Shown one piece after another: positions 34,013 through 62,363 of a stretch of 64,000 bases of DNA. This DNA comes from Geomonas azotofigens (GTDB lineage: Bacteria; Desulfobacterota; Desulfuromonadia; Geobacterales; Geobacteraceae). The notes beneath the pieces are model-generated. The model had not been told where the DNA came from and ran no database searches. It saw nothing but the letters and a program-made list of their open reading frames with translations. The stretch lies in assembly GCF_018919395.1 (NCBI RefSeq), contig NZ_JAHLME010000003.1, forward strand, positions 248,001-312,000, given 5' to 3'. Made by a program: the position numbers and the translations under genes. How positions within the stretch are numbered: the stretch's first letter is position 1; every line of letters starts with the position of its first letter.

Positions 34013-34138
34013 GCAGACTATCGTGCGTGCGGAGGAGGCGCCGAACTGGCCACTCTGCGACCTTTTTCCGTGCGGGACCACGCCACGGTTGGAAAACCAC
34101 CGGCAGAACGCCGGGTCGCCCAGAAAAGGAGTAACGCC

Positions 34139-34957
34139 ATGACCGTTAGTGACATCTCTTTGACCGCCGGCATGAGGACCAACCTGCTCTACCTGCAGAA
34201 CACCAGCCAGCTTCTGAACCGGACCCAGCAGAGGCTTTCCTCGGGCAAACAGGTCAACAGCGCCCTGGACAACCCGACCAACTACTTCGCTGCGCAAAAC
34301 GCGAACCAGCGCGCCAGCGACCTCTCCGACCGCAAGGACGGCATGTCGGAGGCGGTGCAGACCGTCAACGCCACCAACGCCGGCATCACCGCCATCACCG
34401 GCCTGATCAACGCAGCCAAAGGCGTGGCCCAGTCCGCACTTTCCACCAGCGACACCACCGTCCAGTCGAAACTGGCCAACCAGTACAACACCATCCGCAG
34501 CCAGATCGACAACCTCTCCTCCGACTCCGGCTACCGCGGTCTCAACCTGTTGAGCAGCATCAACACCCTCACGGTGAACTTTAACGAGGATGCCAGCTCG
34601 ACCCTCGACGTAGTGGGTTTTCTGGCCAACTCAGGCGGCCTGAGCCTCAGCGCGGCCAGCAACAACTGGCAGACCGTTTCCGATATCACCACCGATACCG
34701 CGAAGATGGATACCGCCATCTCGACCCTCAGGGTCAACACCCAGGCCCTGGCCGCCAACCTGAACATCATCACCACGCGGCAAAGCTTCACCAACGAGAT
34801 GATCAACACCCTGCAGACCGGTGCCGACAACCTGACCCTCGCCGACATGAACGAGGAAGGCGCCAACATGCTCATGCTGCAGACCCGCCAGTCACTGGGC
34901 ACCACCTCGCTGAGCCTATCCTCGTCTGCAGCCCAGTCCATCCTCAAGCTGTTCTAG
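34139..34957 (+). CDS. fliC: Flagellin
   Basis: A 272-residue flagellin. The N-terminal D0/D1 helix has the pattern Q-x-L-L-N-R-T-Q-Q-R-L-S-S-G-K-x-V-N-S-A-x-D-N-P, and the C-terminal helix has E-E-G-A-N-M-L-M-L-Q-T-R-Q-x-L-G...Q-S-I-L-K-L-F. The variable centre (about 140-180) is very short, so the filament surface would be almost bare. ATG has AAAGGAG 5 bases upstream, and a sigma-28-like promoter is upstream. No other flagellar structural gene is nearby, so this is a solitary filament gene. Confidence 0.9.
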   Translation: MTVSDISLTAGMRTNLLYLQNTSQLLNRTQQRLSSGKQVNSALDNPTNYFAAQNANQRASDLSDRKDGMSEAVQTVNATNAGITAITGLINAAKGVAQSALSTSDTTVQSKLANQYNTIRSQIDNLSSDSGYRGLNLLSSINTLTVNFNEDASSTLDVVGFLANSGGLSLSAASNNWQTVSDITTDTAKMDTAISTLRVNTQALAANLNIITTRQSFTNEMINTLQTGADNLTLADMNEEGANMLMLQTRQSLGTTSLSLSSSAAQSILKLF

Positions 34958-35013: not shown

Positions 35014-35247
35014 ATGAAAAAATCACTGCTTACGCCGGCGTGCCTCCTGCTCCAGGGGGGGGCGCCGACCGGGAGCAACCCCGGCTTGCCTGTCGCGGCG
35101 GCAACGGCAGGGGAAGACGGCGAATGCGCCGTAGGTCTCAGGGAGGAAGCGGCCAACATGCGGCGTCTGGTCCAGGCCCAGCAGAAAGCGCAGACGCCCT
35201 TGGCGGACTCGTCGATACAGGCCCGCGTGGTCCTGGGACAGTTCTAG
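35014..35247 (+). CDS. Small flagellin-tail-like protein (possible flagellin remnant)
   Basis: A 77-residue ORF with a good ribosome site (AAGGAG 6 bases before ATG). Its last 34 residues (from E-E-A-A-N-M) align without gaps to the last 34 residues of the adjacent flagellin (E-E-G-A-N-M): 14 of 34 are identical, including E-E-x-A-N-M-x-x-L, Q, T-x-L and the final Phe. The first about 43 residues (MKKSLLTPACLLLQGGAPTG...) do not look like flagellin. It may be the decayed 3' end of a duplicated flagellin gene or a real short helper protein. Function unknown. Confidence 0.5.
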   Translation: MKKSLLTPACLLLQGGAPTGSNPGLPVAAATAGEDGECAVGLREEAANMRRLVQAQQKAQTPLADSSIQARVVLGQF

Positions 35248-35379
35248 CGTGGCGGGGTAACTCCATGACAACCTGCATGTTTTGGGTAAAAGGGGTCTGA
35301 TAATTGCAGACGCTTCAACTAAAAGAGTCATAACCAGAAACTGGGCTGGGGGCAAACGCCGCAGCGCGAGGGGGCGGTT

Positions 35380-35593: not shown

Positions 35594-35610
35594 TGTCGGG
35601 TTATTTTACA
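35594..35610 (-). promoter_or_regulatory. 17-bp motif, relaxed copy
   Basis: On the minus strand TGTAAAATAACCCGACA, one base from TGTAAAG-N5-CGACA. See the copies at 36889, 37027 and 43096. Confidence 0.5.
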
Positions 35611-35625
35611 GGAGCCGTTGACTTG

Positions 35626-35642
35626 TGTCGGGACAATTGACA
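35626..35642 (-). promoter_or_regulatory. 17-bp motif, weaker copy
   Basis: On the minus strand TGTCAATTGTCCCGACA; it fits the relaxed form TGTNAA-N6-CGACA. It also forms one arm of a TGTCGGG/CCCGACA inverted repeat. Confidence 0.4.
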
Positions 35643-35697
35643 GTACCCGACAATAGGTGAGCGGGAAGTTTCACTTGTTCGAAATTGCGTTTAATAA

Positions 35698-35725
35698 GGC
35701 GATGCCTGCTGGGCATCGCCTTTTT
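35698..35725 (+). terminator. Rho-independent terminator
   Basis: Stem GGCGATGCC / GGCATCGCC with a short loop and TTTTT. It ends the GPERR transcript or an unrecognised small RNA starting near 35.6 kb. Confidence 0.85.
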
Positions 35726-35983
35726 GTTTCAACGGTAAGGCTGGGTTGGATTTCGCGGCCTTGCCGCGGATGGCCAGTATGAGGAAACCGGTACAAAAGA
35801 GCATCGTGGGGCGGTTGCAGGGCCCGGATGGGAGCGGTGGAGGCGGGCCAGGCGTTGATTCCAAGTACTGGCGGGGCGACTATGTACTACAGGTGTGTGC
35901 TGAAGTCGAAGCTGTTCAGAACCCCCGGGCCCAGGAACAGTACATGTGTCGGCTGAGGGGGAACGCGTTGTCTGTGCATAAAA

Positions 35984-36825: not shown

Positions 36826-36841
36826 TGCAGTAAGGGTGCCG
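36826..36841 (-). promoter_or_regulatory. Sigma-54-like promoter of the PEP-CTERM gene
   Basis: On the minus strand CGGCAC-N5-CTGCA, against the -24/-12 consensus TGGCAC-N5-TTGCW. GG and GC are present at exact 10-base spacing. The start codon lies 66 bases downstream. Confidence 0.6.
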
Positions 36842-36888: not shown

Positions 36889-36905
36889 TGTAAAGTAAAT
36901 CGACA
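36889..36905 (+). promoter_or_regulatory. 17-bp motif TGTAAAG-N5-CGACA, copy A
   Basis: TGTAAAGTAAATCGACA, 48 bases upstream of the -24 element. Position and repetition suggest a binding site for a sigma-54 enhancer-binding activator (PrsR would be the expected one in XrtA systems). Confidence 0.6.
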
Positions 36906-36975
36906 AGAAATGGTTCCCGAAAAGGGGAGGAGCGACCCACCAAACTGCTCAGTGGAGGCCGGATTTCTCAGTGGA

Positions 36976-37022
36976 GGCGGGCCTTCGGAGCTTACGGGCG
37001 GTAACGGCTAAGGAGGCCCGCC
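36976..37022. repeat. Nested hairpin
   Basis: Outer stem GGCGGGCCT / AGGCCCGCC (9 bp) enclosing an inner TTAC-GGGCG-GTAA hairpin flanked by AGC/GCT. No T-run, so it is not a simple terminator. Confidence 0.5.
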
Positions 37023-37026
37023 CGAG

Positions 37027-37043
37027 TGTAAAGAAGGCCGACA
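37027..37043 (+). promoter_or_regulatory. 17-bp motif TGTAAAG-N5-CGACA, copy B
   Basis: TGTAAAGAAGGCCGACA, in the same orientation as copy A and 138 bases further upstream. It lies between the end of the CAAX-like gene and the PEP-CTERM promoter. Confidence 0.55.
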
Positions 37044-37131
37044 AGGCTTTCGGGTCTCTCCTGTTGTCGGGGGCAGGACCAACCGATGCCTTGCCGATTT
37101 CTTGAATTGTCATGATTCACGGGAGAGTTGG

Positions 37132-37845
37132 CTACCAGAGGTACCACTTGCCGGTTGCCAGGACGTAGCAGGCGAGGGCGAGGTTCGTGACGGCATGGGC
37201 GAGGACACAGAGGATGATGCTGCGGGTCCGGTAACAGATGATGTTGTAGATGGCGCCGGCCGCCATGCCGGCGACGATCAGGTGGTGTTCCAGTCCGAAA
37301 AGGACCGTGGTGAACAGGAAGGAGGGCCAACTGAAGTCACCGATCCGCACCGACCAGAATCGTGGGCGAATGAGGTAACGCAGCAGGAACGAGCGCCAGA
37401 AAAGTTCCTCCATGACCGGGACGACGAGCACGGCTCCAACGACGCGCAGGCCGGTCATCACGACTCGCACCGCTCCCTCGGGCAGAAGCGCCGGCGCGAA
37501 AGGGGGGGGGGGTGGGGCCACCTGGACGGTCCAGGTGATGGATATCCAGACGACGAAGGTGACCACCCCGGCGAGCACGACCGCGGCGCTCCTTTTCAGG
37601 TCGCGCAGGTCTTCCAGGCGCAGTTCAAGGTACTTGTCGCGGCAGACGACAAGGAGCGCCGCCACGGAAAGAATCTTGACCGGGTACAGGTAAAGGTGTG
37701 CCGCGGGGGGGATCAGCAGCGCACCCGCCTGCTGTAGCACGCCCAGCGCCTCCTGAATGGCGATGAACCCCATGTACAGCGCGAAGGGGAGGACGCGGCA
37801 GACCGCCTCTCCGTTAAACCGTGTCTGGGGCTGGGCGTGGACCAT
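37132..37845 (-). CDS. Exosortase-associated CAAX-protease-like membrane protein (TIGR03008-like)
   Basis: A 237-residue membrane protein with about seven hydrophobic segments. The CPBP/ABI catalytic motifs are present: EELFWRSFLLR (motif 1), FGLEHH (motif 2) and HAVTNLALA (motif 3). Its N-terminal layout fits the CAAX-related family that co-occurs with PEP-CTERM/exosortase systems. It may process PEP-CTERM proteins after exosortase cleavage or act in maturation; this is not established. It is encoded between the first PEP-CTERM gene and the FemAB operon, transcribed leftward. Confidence 0.78.
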   Translation of the reverse strand: MVHAQPQTRFNGEAVCRVLPFALYMGFIAIQEALGVLQQAGALLIPPAAHLYLYPVKILSVAALLVVCRDKYLELRLEDLRDLKRSAAVVLAGVVTFVVWISITWTVQVAPPPPPFAPALLPEGAVRVVMTGLRVVGAVLVVPVMEELFWRSFLLRYLIRPRFWSVRIGDFSWPSFLFTTVLFGLEHHLIVAGMAAGAIYNIICYRTRSIILCVLAHAVTNLALACYVLATGKWYLW

Positions 37846-38176
37846 GGTTCTCCCTTTGAGCGAGGTTTCGGCCGGAGCGCGGGAGTAATTTTAGCAGGGA
37901 CAGGAAGAAATGAAAGCGCAAATGTAAACAGTGGCTTACTATGTTATGACAATAATAAATAATTAATCTATCTCGTGCAAATACTGCGCTGTATTTGATA
38001 GATACAACCCGACCGCGGCTCTCTCATTGGCGAATATAAATAGTAGTTTAGTTAACTTGATCTTAGCAAGCTTCATTGTAGACTTTACACCATCAACCAG
38101 CAAACGTTTCCGAGACAACCGGCCCATGTCCCCGAGAGTGTACCCTTAGGCGCAGGTCCTATCACGGCAAGAGGCA
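37846..38176. other. AT-rich divergent promoter region
   Basis: About 330 bases between the CAAX-like gene and the FemAB operon. The centre (about 37920-38100) is markedly AT-rich. A CTTTACA half-site of the 17-bp motif is at 38083-38089. No clear sigma-54 or sigma-70 promoter could be assigned. Confidence 0.5.
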
Positions 38177-39262
38177 ATGAGCGAGCTGTCCGTCACCGTC
38201 ATCGATACCCCGGAGAAACTGCAAGGGCTGGCACCTCGGTGGAACGAACTGCTCGCAGAGTCGGTGGCCTCCGGTGTGTTCCTGACCTGGGAGTGGATCA
38301 CGGCGTGGCTTGGCTGCTGCCTCGGAGAGAGGCGCGAGCTCTTCATCCTCTGCTTCACGGAGCGGGGCCGGCCGGCCGGGGTCGCTCCCTTTTACCGGGA
38401 GCGGGGGCGAGGGACGTTCGGAGTGCGCACCATCCGTTTTTTGGGGGCGCCGGAGGGGGGGAGCGACTACCTCGACGTGGTCTGCCGCAGGGGATGCGAG
38501 GACCAGGTGGCCGACGCGCTGTACCGGTTCCTCATGGGGCAGGGGAGGGGGGAGTGGGACCTGCTGCACCTGCAGGACATCCCCGCAGACTCGATTTTCC
38601 TGCTCCGTTTCCTCGAGCGGGTGGACGAGGCAGGACAGTACCTTGAGCTCGCTCCCGGTGCGTTCTGCCCCGCGCTGGAGTTGGGGGAGAGCCGGGAGGA
38701 CGGGTGGCCGCGAGCGGCTTCCAACGGCTGCCGGAGAAAGTACCAGAAGGAGCTCGCCCTGCTGGAGAGGGAGGGGGAGGTGGTTCACCTGGTGGAGGAA
38801 AACGCCGGGGCGGCGTCGCTGGAGCGCTTCTTCCGCCTCTACGGGGCTGCCTGCGGCAGGCCCGGCGCGAGACTCCTCTCCCTGCTTCAGGGGTACCTGG
38901 AGCGCGGCGGTTCTTCGGCGGGACTCAGGGTCGACACCCTGGCCTGCCAGGGGAAGGAGATCGCCTCCCTGCTCCACTTCCGTTACCGGGACTCCCTGTT
39001 CCTGTACCTGGTGGCGGTGGACAAGACGTTCAACCCCAAGGTCAGCGTCGGGCACGTGCTTCTTGGCAAGTGCATCCTTGACGCGGGGCAAAACGGGTAC
39101 CGGCGCTACGATTTTCTCAAGGGGGCCGAGCCGTACAAGTTCCACTGGGCCGCCGGCGGGCGCCGCAGCCTCCAGGTCAGGTTGTGGCGCAAGACCCCCA
39201 GGGGGGTCGCCGCGGCCTTTGTGAGGATGGCCCGCCAGGCGGGAAAGCTGCTCCTTAGGTAG
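38177..39262 (+). CDS. FemAB/GNAT-like acyltransferase (Acetyltransf_6 type)
   Basis: A 361-residue protein built like the CelD/BcsL and FemAB group: an N-terminal half (LAPRWNELLAESVASGVFLTWEWITAWLGCC; RGRPAGVAPFYRE) and a C-terminal GNAT half (LRVDTLACQGKEIASLLHFRYRDSLFLYLVAVDKTF...GHVLLGKCILDAGQNGYRRYDFLKGAEPYKFHWA). The D-F-L-K-G-x-E-P-Y-K motif is typical. Such enzymes transfer an acyl or aminoacyl group to a glycan or lipid-linked sugar. First gene of a four-gene run ending in a deacetylase, next to the XrtA operon. Substrate unknown. Confidence 0.78.
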   Translation: MSELSVTVIDTPEKLQGLAPRWNELLAESVASGVFLTWEWITAWLGCCLGERRELFILCFTERGRPAGVAPFYRERGRGTFGVRTIRFLGAPEGGSDYLDVVCRRGCEDQVADALYRFLMGQGRGEWDLLHLQDIPADSIFLLRFLERVDEAGQYLELAPGAFCPALELGESREDGWPRAASNGCRRKYQKELALLEREGEVVHLVEENAGAASLERFFRLYGAACGRPGARLLSLLQGYLERGGSSAGLRVDTLACQGKEIASLLHFRYRDSLFLYLVAVDKTFNPKVSVGHVLLGKCILDAGQNGYRRYDFLKGAEPYKFHWAAGGRRSLQVRLWRKTPRGVAAAFVRMARQAGKLLLR

Positions 39263-39281
39263 GGAGCGTGGAGGAGACGTC

Positions 39282-39803
39282 ATGCAAGGGGGCGGCAAGT
39301 GCCAGTTGCAGGTGGTGTACCACTCGGGCGGTCCCCTCACCCTTTCCGACAGGGTGAGGACCTTCGTGCTGCGTCTGAACAGCGCGCTTAAACGGCGCCT
39401 GGTGCACCACTTCAGCGCTATGGAGCAGGCGAGCGCGGCGGGGGCGTGCGCCATAAACCGGGCCGCGAACCGCCTGCTTTCCTCCCCGGGCGCCTGCTAC
39501 CAGCCTGGGGACCAGGTCGAGGTGCTCACCATGGAGGAGATCCGGCGCACCCTGGACGGCAACGGCTGCTGCGGCAGGCTGCAGTTCATGCCCGGGATGG
39601 CGCGTTTCGCGGGGACTCGGTGCACGGTCTTGAAGCCGGTGCGGACCATGTTCGATGAGCGTGCCTGGAAGATGGTCCGGGTGAAGGACACGGTGGTGCT
39701 GCGGGACGTGATCTGCGACGGTGCGGGGCTCTACGACAAGGAGGGGTGCGACCGCTGCTGCTACTACTTCTGGAAGACCGATTGGCTGCGCAAGGTGCGC
39801 TGA
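39282..39803 (+). CDS. Unknown Cys-rich protein between two FemAB-like genes
   Basis: A 173-residue cytoplasmic protein with no signal or membrane segment. The N-terminal helix region (TLSDRVRTFVLRLNSALKRRL) is followed by a strand-rich part with an SH3-like start Y-Q-P-G-D-Q-V-E-V-L-T-M-E-E-I-R-R-T-L-D and conserved-looking cysteines: G-N-G-C-C-G, T-R-C-T-V-L, and D-K-E-G-C-D-R-C-C-Y-Y-F-W-K-T-D-W-L-R-K-V. The C-terminal C-x2-C-C could bind metal. No family is recognised. It lies 19 bases after the first FemAB-like gene and 2 bases before the second, so it is in the same operon. Confidence 0.65.
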   Translation: MQGGGKCQLQVVYHSGGPLTLSDRVRTFVLRLNSALKRRLVHHFSAMEQASAAGACAINRAANRLLSSPGACYQPGDQVEVLTMEEIRRTLDGNGCCGRLQFMPGMARFAGTRCTVLKPVRTMFDERAWKMVRVKDTVVLRDVICDGAGLYDKEGCDRCCYYFWKTDWLRKVR

Positions 39804-39805
39804 CC

Positions 39806-40993
39806 ATGGCCAAGGACTCCACCCCACTCACCGTCTCGCTTGCCGACGGCTGGGAGGCGACGGCCTACCGGCAGTGGTCCTTCCCGCGGGAGTTGGCCGA
39901 GCGCTGGGACGACCTCGCGCAGGCCTACGGCGACCTCGGTGTTTTCCTCACCTTCGAGAGCTTCTCCTGCTGGTGGCACTCCTTCGGCGGCGCCGCACGC
40001 CCCCTGGTGACGGTCCTTGCCAGGGACGGAGAGGTGAAGGGGATCTTCCCCTGCCGACTGGTCACCGACGGCAAGGGGAGGAGCAGCGGGATCCGCTCCC
40101 TCGCCAACAGCGAGACCCACTGTTTCGATTTCCTGGTGGCCGAAGAGGAGCGCAGGGCGGCGCTGACCGGCTTTCTCCTCGCAGCGGCGCGGCTTTTTCC
40201 GGGCGAGACCATCACGATCGACAAGCTCCCCGCGGCCGGACCGAACACGCCCCCCCTGCTGGAGCTTCTGTCGTTAAGAAGCGGGTGCTCGCAGCACGGC
40301 TTTCACCCCAGCGCCCCCTTCCTGGAGGTGCCGCGAAGCGAGGCGGAGCTTTTGGCGCGCCTGTCGGGCAGGGTGCAGAAATCGCTGAAGCAAAGCCGGA
40401 AACGCGCGGCCCGGGAGGGGGGGGTGCTGCTGCAGGCGGTGACCGGCGGCGAATCCCTCGACGCCACCCTTTCCGAGATGTTCGAGGCCGAGTACCGCAG
40501 CTGGAAGGGGGAGGCGGGGACGGCGATCAAGTGCCGGCATGACGCGGAGAGCTACTACCGCGCCCTGGCCCGGTGGGCCGCAGAGAGCGGGTCGCTGGTG
40601 CTGTTTCTGCTCAGGCTGGACCAGCGCGTCACCGCGGCCTGCTTCTGCCTGGCCCGGGGTGGCACCATCTTCATCCTGAAGACCGGCTATGACAAGCAGT
40701 ACCGTCAGTTCACCCCTGGGCTTTTGCTGCTGGCCGAGGTGCTCACCTGGTGCCGGGAGACGGGAGGTTACCAGCTCTGTGACCTGCGCGGGGTCTGCGA
40801 GCCCTGGAAGATGGAGTGGACCGACCGGACCGGGGCGAGCGGGACGGTCAGGATCTTTCCCGCCTCGTTTTCCGGCACGCTCAGCTACCTGACCAGTTAC
40901 GGCTGGAAGGAGTTCCTGAAAAAGTTACCCCCGGTCCGCTACGGCCTCAACCGGGTCAGGCGTAAGGGCGCCTCCGCCGCGGCCGTGCCCTGA
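39806..40993 (+). CDS. Second FemAB/GNAT-like acyltransferase
   Basis: A 395-residue protein of the same class: N-terminal half (YRQWSFPRELAERWDDLAQAYGDLGVFLTFESFSCWW; VKGIFPCRL) and C-terminal half (FLLRLDQRVTAACFCLARGGTIFILKTGYDKQYRQFTPGLLLLAE; LCDLRGVCEPWKMEWT). D-L-R-G-V-x-E-P-W-K-M-E-W takes the place of the D-F-L-K-G motif of the first copy. It starts 2 bases after the unknown protein, without a strong own ribosome site, suggesting coupling. It shares only the fold with the first copy, so it is not a recent tandem duplicate. Confidence 0.76.
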   Translation: MAKDSTPLTVSLADGWEATAYRQWSFPRELAERWDDLAQAYGDLGVFLTFESFSCWWHSFGGAARPLVTVLARDGEVKGIFPCRLVTDGKGRSSGIRSLANSETHCFDFLVAEEERRAALTGFLLAAARLFPGETITIDKLPAAGPNTPPLLELLSLRSGCSQHGFHPSAPFLEVPRSEAELLARLSGRVQKSLKQSRKRAAREGGVLLQAVTGGESLDATLSEMFEAEYRSWKGEAGTAIKCRHDAESYYRALARWAAESGSLVLFLLRLDQRVTAACFCLARGGTIFILKTGYDKQYRQFTPGLLLLAEVLTWCRETGGYQLCDLRGVCEPWKMEWTDRTGASGTVRIFPASFSGTLSYLTSYGWKEFLKKLPPVRYGLNRVRRKGASAAAVP

Positions 40994-41042
40994 TGTTTTT
41001 CCTGGTTGTCGTAACTGCTGGGCCCCGAAGGGGAGGTGGATC

Positions 41043-42173
41043 ATGGTGCTGGTCATCACCATCGACACGGAAGAGGATAACTGGGGCGGTTACACGGACC
41101 GGAACTACTCGCTGGAGAACCTGAAGCGCATCCACGACCTTCAAGGCCTCTTCGACCGCTACGGCGTGCGCCCCACCTATCTGATCAACTACCCGGTCGC
41201 CACCGACCCGCTGGCGATAGAACTTTTCTCCGACCTTTTGGACCGAGGCAGGTGCGAGGTCGGCATGCACTGCCACCCCTGGAACACCCCGCCCTTCGAG
41301 GAGCCGCTCTGCTCCTTCAACAGCATGCTGTGCAACCTCCCCGAGGAACTGCAGTTCCGCAAGCTCGAGACGCTCAGAAACGCCATCCGTGACAACCTCG
41401 GCATCGCCCCGGCATCGTTTCGAGCCGGGCGCTGGGCCTTTGGCAGCGCCACTGCACGCTCGATCCAAAAGCTAGGCCTCAGGATAGACACCTCGGTCAC
41501 CTCCTATACCAGCTGGACCGACTCCAACGGCGTCGACTATAGCAGGGTCCCACCCCATCCCTACCGTTTCTCCCCCGGGGATATCTTTCTCAGCGACGAC
41601 AGCGGCGAGCTCCTGCAGTTCCCGGCCTCGGTCGGCTTCCTGCAGCACGATTTCGAGATCTGCCGCCGCGCGCACGAACTGCTGAAGAAGCAGCCACTCA
41701 AGAAATTGCGCCTGTGCGGCATCCTGGACCGGTTGAGGCTGTTGAACAAGGTGGCGCTTTCCCCCGAGACCGCCACGGGGGCCATGATGGTCAAGCTGGC
41801 CGAGCGTTTCCGGGCCCTGCGCATCGGCTACCTGAACCTGTTCTTCCACTCGAACACGCTGGTCAAGGGGCTTTCCCCCTTCAACAAGCGCGACGGCGAT
41901 ACCGAGCGTTTCTTCCACAGCCTGGAAGAGTTCCTTTGCTACGCCCGGGATACCGGGATCGAGTGCTGCACCCTGAAGGAGGTTCGCCTGGGCGACTTCT
42001 GCCCCTGCGGCAGGGAGCTGCAGGAGTGCCGGAGCGCCTCGCGGCTCCTTTTGGACGGGACCATGCCCGGCATCTTCGACACCGACAGCGTCGGCGCCCG
42101 TGCGGCGCGGGGAGGGGGCGCCGGGGACCACTCCCCGGCGCCCTGGGACCTGCCGCGCCGCGGCGGGAGGTAG
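41043..42173 (+). CDS. Polysaccharide deacetylase-like protein (CE4/NodB fold)
   Basis: A 376-residue protein. NodB-type motifs are visible: VITIDTEEDNW (motif 1, Asp), EVGMHCHPWNTPP (motif 2, H-x-H-P-W in place of H-x3-H) and FRAGRWAFG (motif 3). The pattern resembles the WalW-like branch of CE4. Residues 220-376 have no recognised domain; a C-x-C-G cluster (DFCPCGREL) lies near 315. AGGGGAGG precedes the ATG. It probably removes acetyl groups from an exopolysaccharide or its lipid-linked precursor. Last gene of the accessory operon; no signal peptide, so cytoplasmic. Confidence 0.75.
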   Translation: MVLVITIDTEEDNWGGYTDRNYSLENLKRIHDLQGLFDRYGVRPTYLINYPVATDPLAIELFSDLLDRGRCEVGMHCHPWNTPPFEEPLCSFNSMLCNLPEELQFRKLETLRNAIRDNLGIAPASFRAGRWAFGSATARSIQKLGLRIDTSVTSYTSWTDSNGVDYSRVPPHPYRFSPGDIFLSDDSGELLQFPASVGFLQHDFEICRRAHELLKKQPLKKLRLCGILDRLRLLNKVALSPETATGAMMVKLAERFRALRIGYLNLFFHSNTLVKGLSPFNKRDGDTERFFHSLEEFLCYARDTGIECCTLKEVRLGDFCPCGRELQECRSASRLLLDGTMPGIFDTDSVGARAARGGGAGDHSPAPWDLPRRGGR

Positions 42174-42214
42174 GGCGTGTCACTCCTGTCCGCTGCTGTC
42201 GTCGCCCGGATGTG

Positions 42215-42973
42215 TCAGGCGTTTTTGCGCCGCTTGCCGTAGATGGCCAGGCCGAGGAAGCCCGTGCCCAGAAGGAGCATGGTCCCCGGCTCCGGAACCG
42301 GCGCGACCGATTCCACCATGAGCACCAGGTCGTTGTAGTCCCGGTCGCCGCCGCCATAGGTGTCCTCGAAACCGAACACGTACTCGTTGGGGAGCCACGG
42401 GGTATAGGCCGGACTGCCGGGAAGGCACACCTCTCCCCCTTGGCTCGCGTAGGCCACCATGTGGTCGAACCCGTCGCCGTTGCGGGTGGTGTCGCTGTAG
42501 AAGATATTGGCGCCGTTGTCGAAGTAAAAGCCGAATACGTTGGAGTCGAAGCGGTGGTCGGTGAAGGTTTTGCGCGCGTAGTCGGCGACGGTCAAGGTGA
42601 GGTCCGGGTCGAAACTGAAGGAAACCCTGGTGCCCGCTCCGGCTCTCCCGCTGAAGAGTTCGGCCCTGTTGTTGACGTTGCTCGCGTCGTAGATCCCGAA
42701 GCTGTTCACGTCGGCGTTGCCGGCGATCTCGAGGATCATGGTCGCCGACGACGTGCCGCATCCCCCGGTGGTCCACAGGGCGTCCTTCCGGTCCGACATG
42801 TAGTCGGTGAAGGCGTTGACGCGGCTTACGCCTCCCGCCGTGATGCCGTCGAGGATCTGCTGCATGTTGAATTCAGAGCCGTCTCCCCCCCCTGAGGGGT
42901 TGATGGCAGTTGCGGTCGCGCTGTTCGCTGCCAAACAGAGCACCGCGGCAAGTGTTGCTGCTAGTCGTTTCAT
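42215..42973 (-). CDS. PEP-CTERM protein with DUF4114 domain
   Basis: A 252-residue exported protein: signal peptide 1-23 (LAATLAAVLCLAANSATATA). A DUF4114 core is near 190-225: Y-V-F-G-F-E-D-T-Y-G-G-G-D-R-D-Y-N-D-L-V, an Asp-rich turn likely to bind calcium. The C-terminal sorting tail is V-P-E-P-G-T, MLLLGTGFLGLAIYG and KRRKNA. Predicted substrate of exosortase A. AAGGAGG lies 6 bases upstream of ATG. Its promoter looks sigma-54-dependent. DUF4114 PEP-CTERM proteins are thought to be matrix proteins. Confidence 0.9.
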   Translation of the reverse strand: MKRLAATLAAVLCLAANSATATAINPSGGGDGSEFNMQQILDGITAGGVSRVNAFTDYMSDRKDALWTTGGCGTSSATMILEIAGNADVNSFGIYDASNVNNRAELFSGRAGAGTRVSFSFDPDLTLTVADYARKTFTDHRFDSNVFGFYFDNGANIFYSDTTRNGDGFDHMVAYASQGGEVCLPGSPAYTPWLPNEYVFGFEDTYGGGDRDYNDLVLMVESVAPVPEPGTMLLLGTGFLGLAIYGKRRKNA

Positions 42974-43015
42974 CGTTGGCCTCCTTGGTGTGTATTAATT
43001 TGCGTTCGCCAATGA

Positions 43016-43031
43016 AGCAACGGGCGTGCCA
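43016..43031 (-). promoter_or_regulatory. Sigma-54 promoter of the DUF4114/PEP-CTERM gene
   Basis: On the minus strand TGGCAC-GCCCG-TTGCT, a full match to TGGCAC-N5-TTGCW. It lies 43 bases before the start codon. Confidence 0.82.
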
Positions 43032-43095
43032 TGCCCTCCACCGTGCTGAAACTGCGCCGTTTACCACGGCGCGGGTGAGTGGGCCTGGCAGCGGA

Positions 43096-43112
43096 TGTAA
43101 AGATTCCCGACA
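43096..43112 (+). promoter_or_regulatory. 17-bp motif TGTAAAG-N5-CGACA, copy C
   Basis: TGTAAAGATTCCCGACA, 65 bases upstream of the -24 element of the leftward sigma-54 promoter, same orientation relative to it as copy A. Likely activator site. Confidence 0.6.
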
Positions 43113-43334: not shown

Positions 43335-43351
43335 TGTTAAATTTTTCGACA
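43335..43351 (+). promoter_or_regulatory. 17-bp motif, relaxed copy before the XrtA operon
   Basis: TGTTAAATTTTTCGACA fits TGTNAA-N6-CGACA and lies 64 bases before the prsT-like start. Confidence 0.4.
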
Positions 43352-43414: not shown

Positions 43415-46054
43415 GTGAGAATATCGCTCCTACTTCTGGTTGTCGTCGCGACGTGTGCTGCCTGTGGCAGCAAGACCAAAGAGACCCTCTATGAGGAGGG
43501 GGTGAAACAGATGCAGTCCAACCCGAGCGCGGCGGTGGTTTACCTGAAAAACGCCCTCGAAAAGGACGCGAACTTCTTCGAGGCGCGCTTCCAGCTCGGC
43601 AAGGCGTACGCCGCACTGGGGAAGGCGGAGCAGGCTGAAAAGGAGTTCAACAAGGTTCTCACGCAGAACCCCTCCCGGGACGAGGTGGTCCTGGAACTCG
43701 CCAGGCTGGCCAGCGCCACCGGCAAGGGGGAGCGCGCCGCGGAGCTGTCGCTGCAGTACCTCTCCCGGCATCCGGGAAGCCCCGAGGGGCTCGAGGTCGC
43801 CGGTGAGGCGCACGCCGCGGGCAAAAAGTACCAGGAGGCGCTCTCATTTTTGACCCGCGCCCTGAAGGAGGACCCCGGGCGCGCTTCGGCCCGGCTCGCC
43901 CTGGCCACGGTGCAGCTCGCCATGGGGCGGCGCGACCAGGCGGGGCAGGAGCTGAACCAACTACTCGCCGCCGATCCGCGCAACCTCAAGGCGCTCTACA
44001 TGCTTGGGAGCCTGGAGCTGGCCGCCGGTAACAGGGACCGGGCCGCCGCGACCTACCAGCGGATCATCACGCTGGACCAGAAGCAGGTCGCCGCGCGCTT
44101 CAGGCAAGGGGGGATCTGGCTCGAGCAGGGTGAGGCCGGCAAGGCGGAGGCGGCAGCCGACGGGCTTATCAAGGATTTCCCCACGCGGGGGGACGGCTAT
44201 CTCCTGAAGGGGATGGTCGGCTACTACCGGAAGAACTACACCGACGCCATCGCGCAGTTGCAGCAGTCCAACAAGCTTGGCCCCACCCTGGAGGCCTACC
44301 GCTTCCTGGGGCTTTCCTACTACAGCAAGGGGGAACTGGAGACCGCACTCTCCCAGTTCCGCGTCATCCTGGACCGGGTGCCCGATTCCCGGCGCGCCCG
44401 CCTCATGACCGCCCAGATCCTGCTGATGCAGAAGCGGACCGACGACGCCGTGGCCGAGCTGAAGAAGGTCCTCGCCACCAACGATGCCGATGCAACGGCG
44501 CACAACCTTTTGGGGAGCGCCTACGTGCTCCAGGGTGAGTTCGATGAAGGGATGCGCGAGCTGGACCGGGCGACCAGGCTCGACCCAAAGCAGGTGAGCG
44601 CGTATCTAAGGAAGGGGGCGCTTTATTTCAGCAAGGGGAAGGAAGCCCAGGGGGAGAGCGAGCTTTTGAGCGCCGTGAAGGCCTCCCCCGACGCGCTGAC
44701 CGGAAGGCTCCTCCTTGCCTCGCACTACCGGCGCCTTGGCAAGAGCGACAAGGCGGCGTCCCTTTTGAAAGCCGGGCTCACCGGCGGGAAGGGTGACGCC
44801 CCGCTGTACAACGCGCTTGCCGCGCTGCAGCTCTCCGCTGGGAAGAAGGACCAGGCGGTGGCAAGCCTCGAGGCCGCCAAGAAGGCGGACCCGCTCCTGG
44901 CCGCGAGCTACCAGCTTCTGGCCGGCTACTACGCCTCCCTGGCCGACTACCAAAAGGCGATAGCCGAGCTGACCCTGCTGCAGTCGAGGGTCCCCGGCAA
45001 CCTCCAGGCGCTCCTCGGGCTCGCCTCGCTGAACGCCGTTGCCGGCAGGGACGCCGATACGCTGGCCTGGTACCAGAAGGCGACCGCGACCGGCAAGATC
45101 GAAGCGTACCTGGCGCTTGCCGCATACCAGCAGATGAAAGCGCCGCAAAAGGCGCTTGCCACCCTGGACGAGGCGATCAAGCGCGAACCGCGTGCCGCGG
45201 CGCCCCTCGAGGCGAAGGGACGCCTGCTGCTGGCCCAGGGGGAGCCGCAGAAGGCGCTCAGGGTCTTCGAGGAGCTCTCCGCCCTCGATGAGGAGCGCGG
45301 TGCCTTCCTGATGGTCGCCGCCTACCTCGCCATGAAGCAAAAGGGCAAGGCCGTGGAGCAGGCCAAGGGTTACATCGCGCGCCACCCCGACTCCGCGCGG
45401 GGCTACCTCCTTCTGGCCAAGGTGTACCAGGGAACCGGCGACACCGCCTCGGCTCTCGCCCAGGCATCGCGTGCCGTCCAGATCGACCCGGCAAGCGTCC
45501 AGGCCCGCATCCTCCAGGGGGAGTTGCAGCGCGCCAGGAGGGACTACCCGGCCGCGCTCGCCTCCTTCCAGGGGGCGCTCAAGGTGCAGCCCGACTCGGT
45601 GCCGGCCCGCTTCGCCCTCGCCTCGCTTCTGGAGGAAAGCGGCAAGAAGCGGGAGGCGGCACAAAAGTATCGGGCCATCGTGGAGCTAAACCCAAGCTAC
45701 GCCCCGGCGCTCAACAACCTGGCCTACTTGAGCGCCGACGGCTACGGCAGCAAGGAGCAGGCGCTGCGCTACGCCATCGACGCCTACCGCCTGGAACCGG
45801 GCAACCCCGTCGTCACCGATACCGTGGGGTACGCCCTGTACCGCAACGGTCGCAGCCAGGACGCGGTCAAGGTGCTGGAGCGGGCGGCGGCGCTGCTGCC
45901 GAAGGATCCGACGGTGCGCTATCACCTGGGGCTTGCCTACCACCAGGCGGGAGACCGCGCCCGTTCCCAGAAGGCGCTGCAGGACTCCCTCTCCCTTGGG
46001 GAATACCCGGACAGCACGGCGGCGAGGACCCTCCTGGCCCAGTTGAAGCGCTAG
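43415..46054 (+). CDS. prsT: PrsT-like TPR-repeat lipoprotein of the XrtA/PEP-CTERM system
   Basis: An 879-residue protein composed almost wholly of TPR repeats (about 22; typical A-x3-Y-x2-A-L-x7-P units, for example FFEARFQLGKAYAALGKAEQAEKEF). The N-terminus is a lipoprotein signal (VRISLLLLVVVATCAACGSK). The start GTG at 43415 has GGAGG 7 bases upstream; an open frame continues to 43334 but lacks a site. PrsT proteins head XrtA exopolysaccharide operons and are thought to scaffold export or assembly in the periplasm, as PelB or BcsC TPR regions do. Length is typical for the family. Confidence 0.85.
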   Translation: MRISLLLLVVVATCAACGSKTKETLYEEGVKQMQSNPSAAVVYLKNALEKDANFFEARFQLGKAYAALGKAEQAEKEFNKVLTQNPSRDEVVLELARLASATGKGERAAELSLQYLSRHPGSPEGLEVAGEAHAAGKKYQEALSFLTRALKEDPGRASARLALATVQLAMGRRDQAGQELNQLLAADPRNLKALYMLGSLELAAGNRDRAAATYQRIITLDQKQVAARFRQGGIWLEQGEAGKAEAAADGLIKDFPTRGDGYLLKGMVGYYRKNYTDAIAQLQQSNKLGPTLEAYRFLGLSYYSKGELETALSQFRVILDRVPDSRRARLMTAQILLMQKRTDDAVAELKKVLATNDADATAHNLLGSAYVLQGEFDEGMRELDRATRLDPKQVSAYLRKGALYFSKGKEAQGESELLSAVKASPDALTGRLLLASHYRRLGKSDKAASLLKAGLTGGKGDAPLYNALAALQLSAGKKDQAVASLEAAKKADPLLAASYQLLAGYYASLADYQKAIAELTLLQSRVPGNLQALLGLASLNAVAGRDADTLAWYQKATATGKIEAYLALAAYQQMKAPQKALATLDEAIKREPRAAAPLEAKGRLLLAQGEPQKALRVFEELSALDEERGAFLMVAAYLAMKQKGKAVEQAKGYIARHPDSARGYLLLAKVYQGTGDTASALAQASRAVQIDPASVQARILQGELQRARRDYPAALASFQGALKVQPDSVPARFALASLLEESGKKREAAQKYRAIVELNPSYAPALNNLAYLSADGYGSKEQALRYAIDAYRLEPGNPVVTDTVGYALYRNGRSQDAVKVLERAAALLPKDPTVRYHLGLAYHQAGDRARSQKALQDSLSLGEYPDSTAARTLLAQLKR

Positions 46055-60170: not shown

Positions 60171-60797
60171 CCCCCGGCTTTGCCGGGGGACTCACAACGT
60201 TCGACAGTTCCTGAAAAATAGAGAAGCCTCCCTAACCGTGAACCGCTCAAAGATCACGAGAAAAGGAGGCCTCTCTTGGACGACAGCAGAGTTTATGTCA
60301 CTCGAAGTGGGAATGCAAGTGTCATGTTGTATGGATACCGAAGGGGCGCCGAAAGGTGCTGTACGGACGGCTACGTAAGCATTTGGGCGATGTATTGCAC
60401 ACTCTTGCAAGGCAGAAAGAATGCCAGATACTCGAAGGGCATCTGTGTAACGATCATGTTCATGTGCTGATATCGATACCACCGAAGTACTCCATTGCGC
60501 AGGTTATTGGTTTCATCAAAGGTAAGAGTGCCATTCATGTGGCAAGATCGTACCTTGGGCAGAAGAAGAACTTCAACTGGATGAGCTTTTGGGCACGCGG
60601 CTATTTCGTTTCAACTGTTGGCGCAGGTGAGGATTTTATCCGCACCTACATCAACCAGCAGGAGATAGAAGATAAGCGGCTCGACCAACTGACAATGTTT
60701 AACGAAGGATGACCACCGGTAGGTGGTCAGAAAATCTTTTGAGCTAACCGCTTTGAGCGGTCCACGATTTTAATAAAGCCCCCGGCTCTGCCGGGGG
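60171..60797 (+). mobile_element. IS200/IS605-type element with matching end hairpins
   Basis: The left end has a hairpin CCCCCGGC-TTT-GCCGGGGG (60171-60189), the right end CCCCCGGC-TCT-GCCGGGGG (60779-60797). Such subterminal imperfect palindromes, without terminal inverted repeats, are recognised by Y1 HUH transposases. It contains a tnpA with a frameshift. Exact element ends outside the hairpins are not determined. Confidence 0.7.
60276..60712 (+). pseudogene. tnpA: IS200/IS605 TnpA, frameshifted
   Basis: A Y1 transposase interrupted near its 5' end. The TTG at 60276 with AGGAGG upstream reads LDDSRVYVTRS, and the following sequence continues in another frame as S-K-W-E-C-K-C-H-V-V-W-I-P-K from 60302. 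From there to 60712 it is intact: the HUH motif D-H-V-H-V-L and the catalytic Tyr in R-T-Y-I-N-Q-Q-E are present. The change needs a -1 shift at about 60300. It may be dead, or expressed by frameshifting; simple decay is more likely. Confidence 0.75.
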
Positions 60798-60873
60798 ATA
60801 CTTACTGGGTGGAGCAGGCGTTTGTTTTTTTTAAAGATGGATCAGGTGGAGGGCCAGGTCGCTTCTTCTGAGA

Positions 60874-61260
60874 GTGTGGTGGATTATGAGAGGAATGTCT
60901 TTGCGAGCCGCTGTCGAGAAGGCCGAGGCAGTGTATGTGAAGCTGGAGTCGATGAAGCTTAAAGAGACGGCCAAAAAGGTGCAGAAATCAATAGTTGAGA
61001 CGCTGACCTACGATGATTTCCCTCGCGAACACAGGGTACGAATCAGGACAAACAACGCCATTGAAAGGATCATGAAGGAAATCAGGCGACGCACCAGGGT
61101 AGTCGGTGCTTTCCCGGACGGGAACTCTGCCCTGATGCTGTGCGCGGCCCGACTCCGACACATTGCCGGCACCCAATGGGGAACGAAGCGTTACCTGGAC
61201 ATTGACCTGCTAACCGAACAGGATCTGGAACTGAACTTCAGAATGGCGGAGGCAATCTAG
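60874..61260 (+). pseudogene. IS256-family transposase, C-terminal remnant
   Basis: The 128 readable residues match the C-terminal third of IS256 transposases: TLTYDDFPREHRVRIRTNNAIERIMKEIRRRTRVVGAFPDGNSALMLCAARLRHIAGTQWGTKRYLD (the conserved N-N-x-I-E-R-I-M-x-E-I-R-R-R-T-R-V-V-G-x-F-P-D-G pattern). The catalytic DDE front is missing. The apparent start codon is not a true start. The right end is interrupted by the IS630 element at the stop codon. Confidence 0.82.
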
Positions 61261-62363
61261 TGTTCCGTTCTGTTAGTTCGTTGTGTTAATTGTATGGCGC
61301 TTTCTCGCGCTCTCAGGACGGAATCGATTATGGCTTTTGCGCTCTTTGTCCACTTAAACGGCTTGGCACAGACCGCATTGTGCACCCGAATGAACCGCTG
61401 AATCTCATCCTTCAGCTCTTTGACACTGCTAAAGACGCCGCGGTAGAGCGCCCTCCGCTCTAACTGGCTGAACCATCCTTCGACTGCGTTTAGTCAGGAA
61501 GCACTCGTGGGGGTGAAGTGAAGCTTTATCCTCGGATGTTTTTCGAGCCAGGCATTAACTTCGGCAGTCTTGTGAGTGCTGCTGTTATCAAGGATCACGT
61601 GGAGGTCCAGATCCTTTGGTGTTGACCGCTCGATCTGGCGCATGAATTCAAGGAACTCTTTAGCGCGGTGACGCGAGGTCATTTTGCCCATTACCTCGCC
61701 GGTCAGTACATTGAACGCAGCATACAGGCTCGTGGTGGCGTTGCGCTTGTAATCATGAGTCCTGCGCTCCACCTGCCCTAGCTTGAGTTGCAGCATCGGC
61801 TGAGTGCGGTCAAGGGCTTGAATCTGCGTCTTCTCGTCAACGGACAGGACGACGGCATTGTTGGGAGGGTTCATGTACAGGCCCACCACGTCAATAACCT
61901 TCTCGGCAAACTGAGGATCATTGCTGATCTTGAAGGTCTGGATCCGATGAGGTTTCAGGTCTGCCGCCTACCAAATCTGCCGAACCTGCCAAGTGGTAAC
62001 GCCAGCATACTTGGCCATGAGGCGGACGCTCCAGTGAGTGGCCTCATGAGGTATTCGCTCAACCGTTAATTTCAGTACTCTCTTGGCGTCTGCCTCGCTG
62101 AGTTTCTTTGGCTGACCAGACTGAGGAAGATCAAGGAGTCCGTCGAGTCCAGCTTCAAGAAACCGCTTGCGCCACTTGTACACTGAATTAGTGGAGGTGC
62201 CGAGAGAGGCGGCGATTGAATCAGCTCTCTCATTCGCAGTACTTTTCAGTATGAAGCGAGCGCGCAGTACGAGAATTTGAGGTGTCTTATGAGACCGTAG
62301 CAGTGCCTCGATTGCCTGCCGGTCTGCTTCTGTCAATTCTATCTTTTCTGGTAACAGTGCCAT
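61257..62363 (-). pseudogene. IS630 transposase with two nonsense mutations
   Basis: One frame of 369 codons starting at ATG 62363. The N-terminal HTH is present (SIAASLGTSTNSVYKWRKRFLEAG). A TAG at 61968-61970 follows R-Q-I-W (likely from CAG), then the DDE core (VVLSVDEKTQIQALDR; LHVILDNSSTHKT), then a TGA at 61494-61496 after T-P-T-S-A-S (likely from TGG). The rest (LNAVEGWFSQLERRALYRGVF) has the final catalytic Glu. No frameshift. Both stops can come from single transitions. Confidence 0.85.

Follow-up and report, generated by a model that had tools for sequence, protein, structure and literature searches.

The 64,000-nucleotide (nt) stretch of Geomonas azotofigens DNA analyzed here (contig NZ_JAHLME010000003.1, positions 248,001 to 312,000; hereafter the window) contained six copies of a short element, three of which, with the exact form TGTAAAG-N5-CGACA, preceded two genes encoding PEP-CTERM proteins. 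By its sequence, this element is "motif 1", already described for proteobacterial PEP-CTERM genes and the predicted site of the sigma-54 activator PrsR (Haft 2006; PMC1569441). It is very probably a PEP-CTERM box to which PrsR, an NtrC-type response regulator whose gene adjoins that of the kinase PrsK, is predicted to bind. In many environmental bacteria, such boxes would activate genes for proteins of the biofilm matrix. The proposal of PrsR as the operator-binding protein was already published in 2006, and the core of this finding is not new. Two placements of the box, behind a GSU3473-family gene and at prsT, the first gene of the XrtA operon, look new.

PEP-CTERM boxes of the window and their predicted activator

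In the original description, motif 1 is 17 nt long, ends in TTTACA, is sometimes repeated, and was found before 99 of 167 proteobacterial PEP-CTERM genes at a mean distance of 62.8 nt (32-92) ahead of a sigma-54 promoter (PMC1569441). PrsR, PrsK, and PrsT were identified from its phylogenetic profile, and a few extra sites before other genes were mentioned (PMC1569441). The boxes of the window agreed with motif 1 and motif 2 of that work in length, 3' end, repetition, promoter distance, and accompanying proteins. When oriented along the gene served, the box reads TGTCG-N6-TTTACA; the copies at 36889, 37027, and 43096, all of 17 nt with the TTTACA end, face the two minus-strand PEP-CTERM genes (Table 1). 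Those at 36889 and 43096 were located 47 and 64 nt ahead of a sigma-54 promoter, and 37027 represents the upper copy of a repeat. A one-mismatch box was likewise found 87-88 bp above the proximal box of the relatives G028, G029, and G038. PrsR, PrsK, and PrsT were all present in the genome. The window differs from the published order in its tandem pair behind a gene (35594 and 35626, along the plus strand) and in the reversed variant at prsT (43335).

Pattern scans of the window recovered all six copies named in the preliminary description: the three exact words, each on the plus strand, and the additional matches to the relaxed form TGTNAA-N6-CGACA at 35594 and 35626 (minus strand) and at 43335 (plus strand), with the variants TGTCAA at 35626 and TGTTAA at 43335. 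The six matches to the relaxed form compare with 0.05 expected, and nine matches to the exact word with up to two mismatches compare with 2.37 expected; neither count was reached by any of 100 shuffles. A log-odds matrix was built from 38 distinct boxes that precede PEP-CTERM genes in other genomes, and the top five sites of the window were 36889 (27.4 bits), 43096 (27.0 bits, a partly circular score because the identical box occurs in two close relatives belonging to the training set), 37027 (24.9 bits), 35594 (24.3 bits), and 43335 (23.8 bits). The best score among 20 random order-2 sequences was 17.6 bits. The site at 35626 scored 12.2 bits and ranked eighth, because its TTGACA end lies outside the usual letters of the training pattern, although its position and spacing were conserved among relatives.

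A profile search detected a single PrsR above the family cut-off in the genome (C12:335727-337067, 23.7 kb beyond the end of the window), which contained receiver, sigma-54, and Fis-type helix-turn-helix domains and a GAFTGA sequence. The PrsK gene directly precedes it, and the earlier statement that the activator gene lies outside the window was thus borne out, with both genes about 24 kb past its end. The window itself encodes PrsT, an EpsB-type transferase, and XrtA, each above its own cut-off. The 33.5 kb surrounding prsK and prsR contained only two one-mismatch boxes, without a promoter. Phosphorylated PrsR would bind the boxes, loop the DNA, and open the sigma-54 polymerase at these promoters with the aid of ATP hydrolysis through its GAFTGA loop.

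Table 1. Location of boxes, promoters, and genes; the strand of a box is that on which it reads TGTCG-N6-TTTACA or a variant thereof.
Feature	Position	Strand	Basis
Sigma-54-like promoter GGGTCTGATAATTGCA of the GSU3473-family gene	35293..35308	+	GG and TTGC invariant in 18 genomes
GSU3473-family gene, 67 aa	35380..35583	+	NF045719, 89.9 bits, cut-off 40
PrsR-type box, first of pair, 10 nt past the stop codon	35594..35610	+	Pattern, conservation, matrix
PrsR-type box, second of pair, 32 bp on	35626..35642	+	Pattern, conservation
Terminator-like hairpin of 12 pairs at the end of the GSU3473 unit	35696..35722	+	Hairpin scan; chance hits common
First PEP-CTERM gene, 218 aa	36104..36760	-	Profile match
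Sigma-54 promoter CGGCACCCTTACTGCA, after the 36889 box	36826..36841	-	9/11 consensus positions
PrsR-type box TGTCGATTTACTTTACA, proximal, first PEP-CTERM gene	36889..36905	-	Pattern and matrix scan
PrsR-type box, distal, 138 bp above the proximal box of the first PEP-CTERM gene	37027..37043	-	Pattern scan
Second PEP-CTERM gene, 252 aa, DUF4114 and PEP-CTERM	42215..42973	-	Profile/domain match
Sigma-54 promoter TGGCACGCCCGTTGCT, after the 43096 box	43016..43031	-	10/11 consensus positions
PrsR-type box TGTCGGGAATCTTTACA, second PEP-CTERM gene	43096..43112	-	Pattern and matrix scan
Variant box TGTCGAAAAATTTAACA, facing away from prsT, at its presumed core promoter	43335..43351	-	Pattern, conservation
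prsT, tetratricopeptide repeat lipoprotein, first XrtA-operon gene	43415..46054	+	TIGR02917, 605 bits, cut-off 312.2
Tandem boxes at CAAX protease/PEP-CTERM genes of G031, G030, and G039	L040 3254-3299, L042 1962-2007, L045 1947-1992		

Boxes in the genome, the genus, and the order

The expected link to PEP-CTERM genes held across the whole genome, where boxes were counted by pattern rather than by matrix. Five of the six copies of the strict motif preceded PEP-CTERM genes, covering four of the five TIGR02595 genes, and the relaxed pattern gave 15 matches compared with three for the pattern read backwards. A box and a sigma-54 promoter in the published order and distance were found at both PEP-CTERM genes of the window and at two more in the genome, with gaps of 47, 62, 64, and 87 nt. 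The same was observed when the upstream regions of the genus were compared: among 108 PEP-CTERM hits in 19 Geomonas genomes, 46 carried a box in the direction of the gene and 12 in the opposite direction, whereas two control patterns gave none. At 35 of these 46 hits, the box was followed within 110 nt by a GG-N10-GC element that agreed with the consensus at 7 or more of 11 positions. Outside the genus, 10 of 20 chosen PEP-CTERM genes had a box.

The distances between boxes and promoters were not evenly distributed. Among 128 PEP-CTERM genes, 56 had a box and 45 of these had a promoter above the threshold of 0.75; 12 gaps were 47-55 nt, 25 were 60-64 nt, and eight were 72-105 nt, with none at 56-59, 65-71, or 77-83 nt. 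When the 43 distinct gaps were jittered by up to 5 nt, none of 10000 trials was as periodic. This is suggestive of a helical spacing of boxes and promoters, and only suggestive because many of the genes are orthologous.

Across 141 genomes of the order, box numbers followed the presence of PrsR. The 88 genomes with PrsR had 658 boxes compared with 118 control matches, and the 41 genomes with neither PrsR nor PEP-CTERM had 61 boxes compared with 60. The box was therefore rejected as a general word of the order, since genomes free of PrsR and PEP-CTERM showed control numbers. G044, the only member of the genus without PEP-CTERM, PrsR, or PrsT hits, had two boxes and one control match.

Several observations weigh against PrsR as the activator that acts through these boxes. 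The strict box was missing at 62 of the 108 genus hits (weak hits and fragments included) and at the other 10 of the 20 genes chosen outside the genus, and the fifth PEP-CTERM gene of the genome (L030 1012-1593, G000:C11:824311), which has an unusual C-terminal end, had no box. Twelve genomes of the order with PEP-CTERM but no PrsR hit contained 66 boxes compared with 15 control matches; two of them, G074 and G080, had 17 boxes each, with eight and five PEP-CTERM hits, respectively, which may reflect missing sequence in the assemblies or a different activator. Among the genomes in which both PrsR and PEP-CTERM were absent, G102 had 7 boxes versus 1 control match and G140 had 6 versus 3. Finally, the sixth exact copy in the genome (L001 1501-1517, G000:C1:219310) was located before a paralogue of the flagellin gene of the window, and no sigma-54 match was found there. 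Among 21 upstream regions of this flagellin (20 relatives and its own), the identical box occurred in eight and a box with one or two base changes in three; it lies inside a leader that is conserved along its whole length, and this gene is at most a candidate member of the regulon. An Rfam scan of the window and this locus detected one transfer RNA and nothing else.

The boxes may, alternatively, be bound mainly by another NtrC-type activator, with PrsR only accompanying the system, which we regard as quite improbable. NtrC-type proteins number in the dozens in this genome (114 TIGR02915 matches, a large part of which are receiver domains only), and some genomes, including G042, G074, and G080, have boxes and no PrsR match; a common motif has been predicted for DVU0110 and DVUA0057 of Desulfovibrio (PMC4641369). 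However, only one protein exceeded the PrsR cut-off, the excess of boxes tracked PrsR across genomes, and the box-bearing genomes without a PrsR match may be due to gaps in draft assemblies. Furthermore, DVUA0057 of Desulfovibrio vulgaris, a predicted PEP-CTERM regulator, bound PEP-CTERM promoters in vitro: DNA-affinity-purified chip (DAP-chip) experiments enriched the five PEP-CTERM targets predicted by Haft (PMC3333781), and six operons were listed in a later study (PMC4641369). This regulon belongs to a different bacterial order and is likened to that of PrsR by its targets, not by the letters of the motif. Chance clustering of an AT-rich word can be dismissed, as it is contradicted by the shuffles of the window as well as by the conservation and genome-wide linkage of the boxes. 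The suggestion that the motif is the operator of PrsR or of a similar protein is well supported for the PEP-CTERM genes, where it matches the published putative site, lies at the published distance from sigma-54 promoters, and tracks PrsR in number; the copies at 35594/35626 and 43335 depart from the picture given in the preliminary description.

At another locus (L015 1501-1644), a variant box TGTCGATAAGTTTAACA was followed 111 nt further by TGGCACCGTATATGCT and, by eye, a short reading frame. This is a possible further target. In the window, the flagellin-like gene (34070-34957) adjoins the polysaccharide locus, and its orthologues, with 86-97% identity, stand beside the same locus in most Geomonas genomes.

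The tandem boxes behind the GSU3473-family gene

The boxes at 35594 and 35626 form a tandem pair behind a small gene whose product is a member of the GSU3473 family (NF045719) above the curated cut-off. The subtype found at the XrtA locus scored far above paralogues elsewhere, and four such paralogues had no exact box. In 18 Geomonas genomes, the gene was preceded by a GG-N10-GC element 69-112 nt ahead of its start, and the GG and TTGC of this element were the sole invariant columns of the aligned upstream regions above the ribosome-binding region. Two boxes with up to two mismatches, 31-33 bp apart, were located past the stop codon in 17 of the 18 genomes, and G034 had a single box with two mismatches. 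The pair was found 286 nt past the -12 element, beyond the whole gene; in G036, the aligned promoter was also 286 nt away (a nearer candidate, 260 nt). Because the conserved promoter is upstream, the pair lies past the stop codon, and the arrangement is kept in 18 genomes, the boxes are placed downstream of the GSU3473 promoter.

The surroundings of this unit were less constant. Its next neighbor could be a PEP-CTERM or a CAAX protease gene in reversed orientation; in G042, it was a PEP-CTERM gene of the same orientation as the unit. In G033, G034, and G036, a CAAX gene was inserted between the flagellin cluster and the unit, which retained promoter, gene, and boxes. A hairpin followed the unit in most relatives, as judged by eye. 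Boxes were likewise located behind a GSU3473-family gene in G023, which belongs to another genus. In G055, such a gene immediately follows prsR, and two boxes, one inverted and one direct, separate the two genes (L144 1600-2035); no sigma-54 match was found at these boxes upstream of the GSU3473-family gene.

These comparisons suggest, with moderate confidence, that the pair is an enhancer downstream of the sigma-54 promoter of the GSU3473-family gene, its predicted activator sites lying beyond the start of a conserved promoter. The pair does not stand before a sigma-54 promoter of the next gene: within 110 nt downstream, no match reached 7 of the 11 consensus positions; within 150 nt, there was one weak match (6/11), 99 and 131 nt from the two boxes. 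A downstream enhancer of a sigma-54 promoter has been reported for FleQ of Pseudomonas aeruginosa (PMC10723142). FleQ is a different protein in a different system, and the Geomonas boxes differ in that they lie past an entire gene.

A less probable explanation is that the pair does not serve the GSU3473-family gene and is instead the upstream enhancer of a lost or inverted PEP-CTERM gene, or exerts a long-range effect on other promoters of the locus. Boxes generally lie upstream of their promoters, traces of a PEP-CTERM end were seen by eye just past the pair in the window, and the same-strand PEP-CTERM gene that follows the pair in G042 is preceded, by eye, by TGGCAC-N5-TTGTA. However, a relic or shared enhancer would have to be retained as two boxes in those 17 genomes although the next gene varies and is usually reversed. 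When both strands were scanned up to 450 nt from the stop codon of the GSU3473-family gene, its promoter was the only sigma-54-like place common to all 18 genomes. The gene above has its stop codon at 35245-35247, about 45 nt from this promoter, which leaves little space in noncoding DNA for an ordinary upstream site; five of the 18 genomes share a GG-N10-GC place inside that small gene. The inclusion of 35594 and 35626 in a tie between the XrtA operon and matrix proteins was not upheld, since the pair appears to go with the GSU3473-family gene instead.

Other arrangements were noted near such units. Positions 35740-35800 (minus strand) resemble a decayed PEP-CTERM end by eye, which tblastn at 1e-4 did not recover in this genome; in G028, G029, G036, and G038, an intact PEP-CTERM end occupies this place. 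In G031, G030, and G039, further tandem boxes, 29 bp apart and again with no sigma-54 match, were observed in the interval that separates the start of the CAAX protease gene from the end of a PEP-CTERM gene. Within the polysaccharide locus, several reading frames at 60356-62363 resemble what we take to be transposase genes or fragments.

The variant box at prsT and the extent of the regulon

The box at 43335 stands 80 nt ahead of prsT. Among 17 Geomonas prsT upstream regions, 12 contained TGTTAA-N6-CGACA exactly, two contained it with one mismatch, and three retained TGYTA without CGACA. A TTG is present about 17 nt above the TAA, suggesting a second role for the TGTTAA half as an extended -10 element, and the box may overlap the prsT core promoter. 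The promoter itself is uncertain because its sigma-70 hexamers are weak and absent from the list of the strict scan. No sigma-54 match (6/11) was found within 150 nt in the direction of the box, which thus does not precede such a promoter, and the 260 nt before prsT contained no GG-N10-GC element; an N11 look-alike TGGCGGCGCTTACTGCC was common to three of the 17 genomes. At this place PrsR would cover the -10 and start region, a repressor-like position. The variant might thus allow PrsR to modulate, probably to repress, an overlapped housekeeping-type promoter of prsT, which we propose only tentatively.

The opposing view, in which the resemblance simply belongs to a conserved prsT promoter and PrsR does not bind, has roughly an even chance of being correct. 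All 12 exact copies read TGTTAA, and most PEP-CTERM boxes differ (TTTACA in 44 of 48 distinct boxes); TGYTA but not CGACA was kept in three genomes; and among 51 prsT upstream regions outside the genus, only G055 had a box at the same place. In Aquincola, a PEP-CTERM gene was RpoN-dependent, and the transcription of prsT was apparently unaffected by the loss of rpoN1 (PMC9850573). On the other hand, the site scored as highly as stated above with a matrix from other genomes, CGACA was kept in 14 of the 17 genomes and in G055 while much of the flanking DNA differs, and the promoter invoked is uncertain. A box at prsT was rejected as a general rule: of the 51 upstream regions (taken from 58 matched places outside the genus), eight had a box with at most one mismatch in the same direction and two in the opposite direction, compared with one hit for two control patterns.

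The preliminary description had joined matrix proteins and polysaccharide export under one signal through these sites. A single mechanism of this kind was not supported in the form proposed, as the box at 43335 lacks a GG-N10-GC promoter in either direction and faces away from prsT, its CGACA half is missing in three of the Geomonas genomes, and prsT of Aquincola is apparently independent of RpoN. A broader scheme for Geomonas, in which PrsR would exert a three-way control through upstream enhancers, an enhancer wholly behind the GSU3473 gene, past its stop codon and ahead of its terminator, and a site on the prsT core promoter used by the housekeeping polymerase, is rather unlikely as a whole.

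In the literature searched, no text match for the GSU3473 family was found, and the main text of a paper on the RpoN regulon of Geobacter sulfurreducens contained no match for GSU3473 or exosortase. In the accessible texts, exclusive of supplements, no published description was found of boxes in either placement, at the far end of a GSU3473-family gene or over the core promoter of prsT.

The copies at PEP-CTERM genes place this genome in a known regulon, and no new idea is needed for them. The placement at the GSU3473-family gene raises the question of whether an enhancer-binding activator can act from a position past the entire gene, and these boxes are the first regulatory clue for the family. 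PrsR at the polysaccharide operon, if true, would show how matrix protein and polysaccharide are matched to each other. If the three-way control is true, one sensor would switch on matrix proteins and, together with them, reset polysaccharide export and a small GSU3473-family protein.

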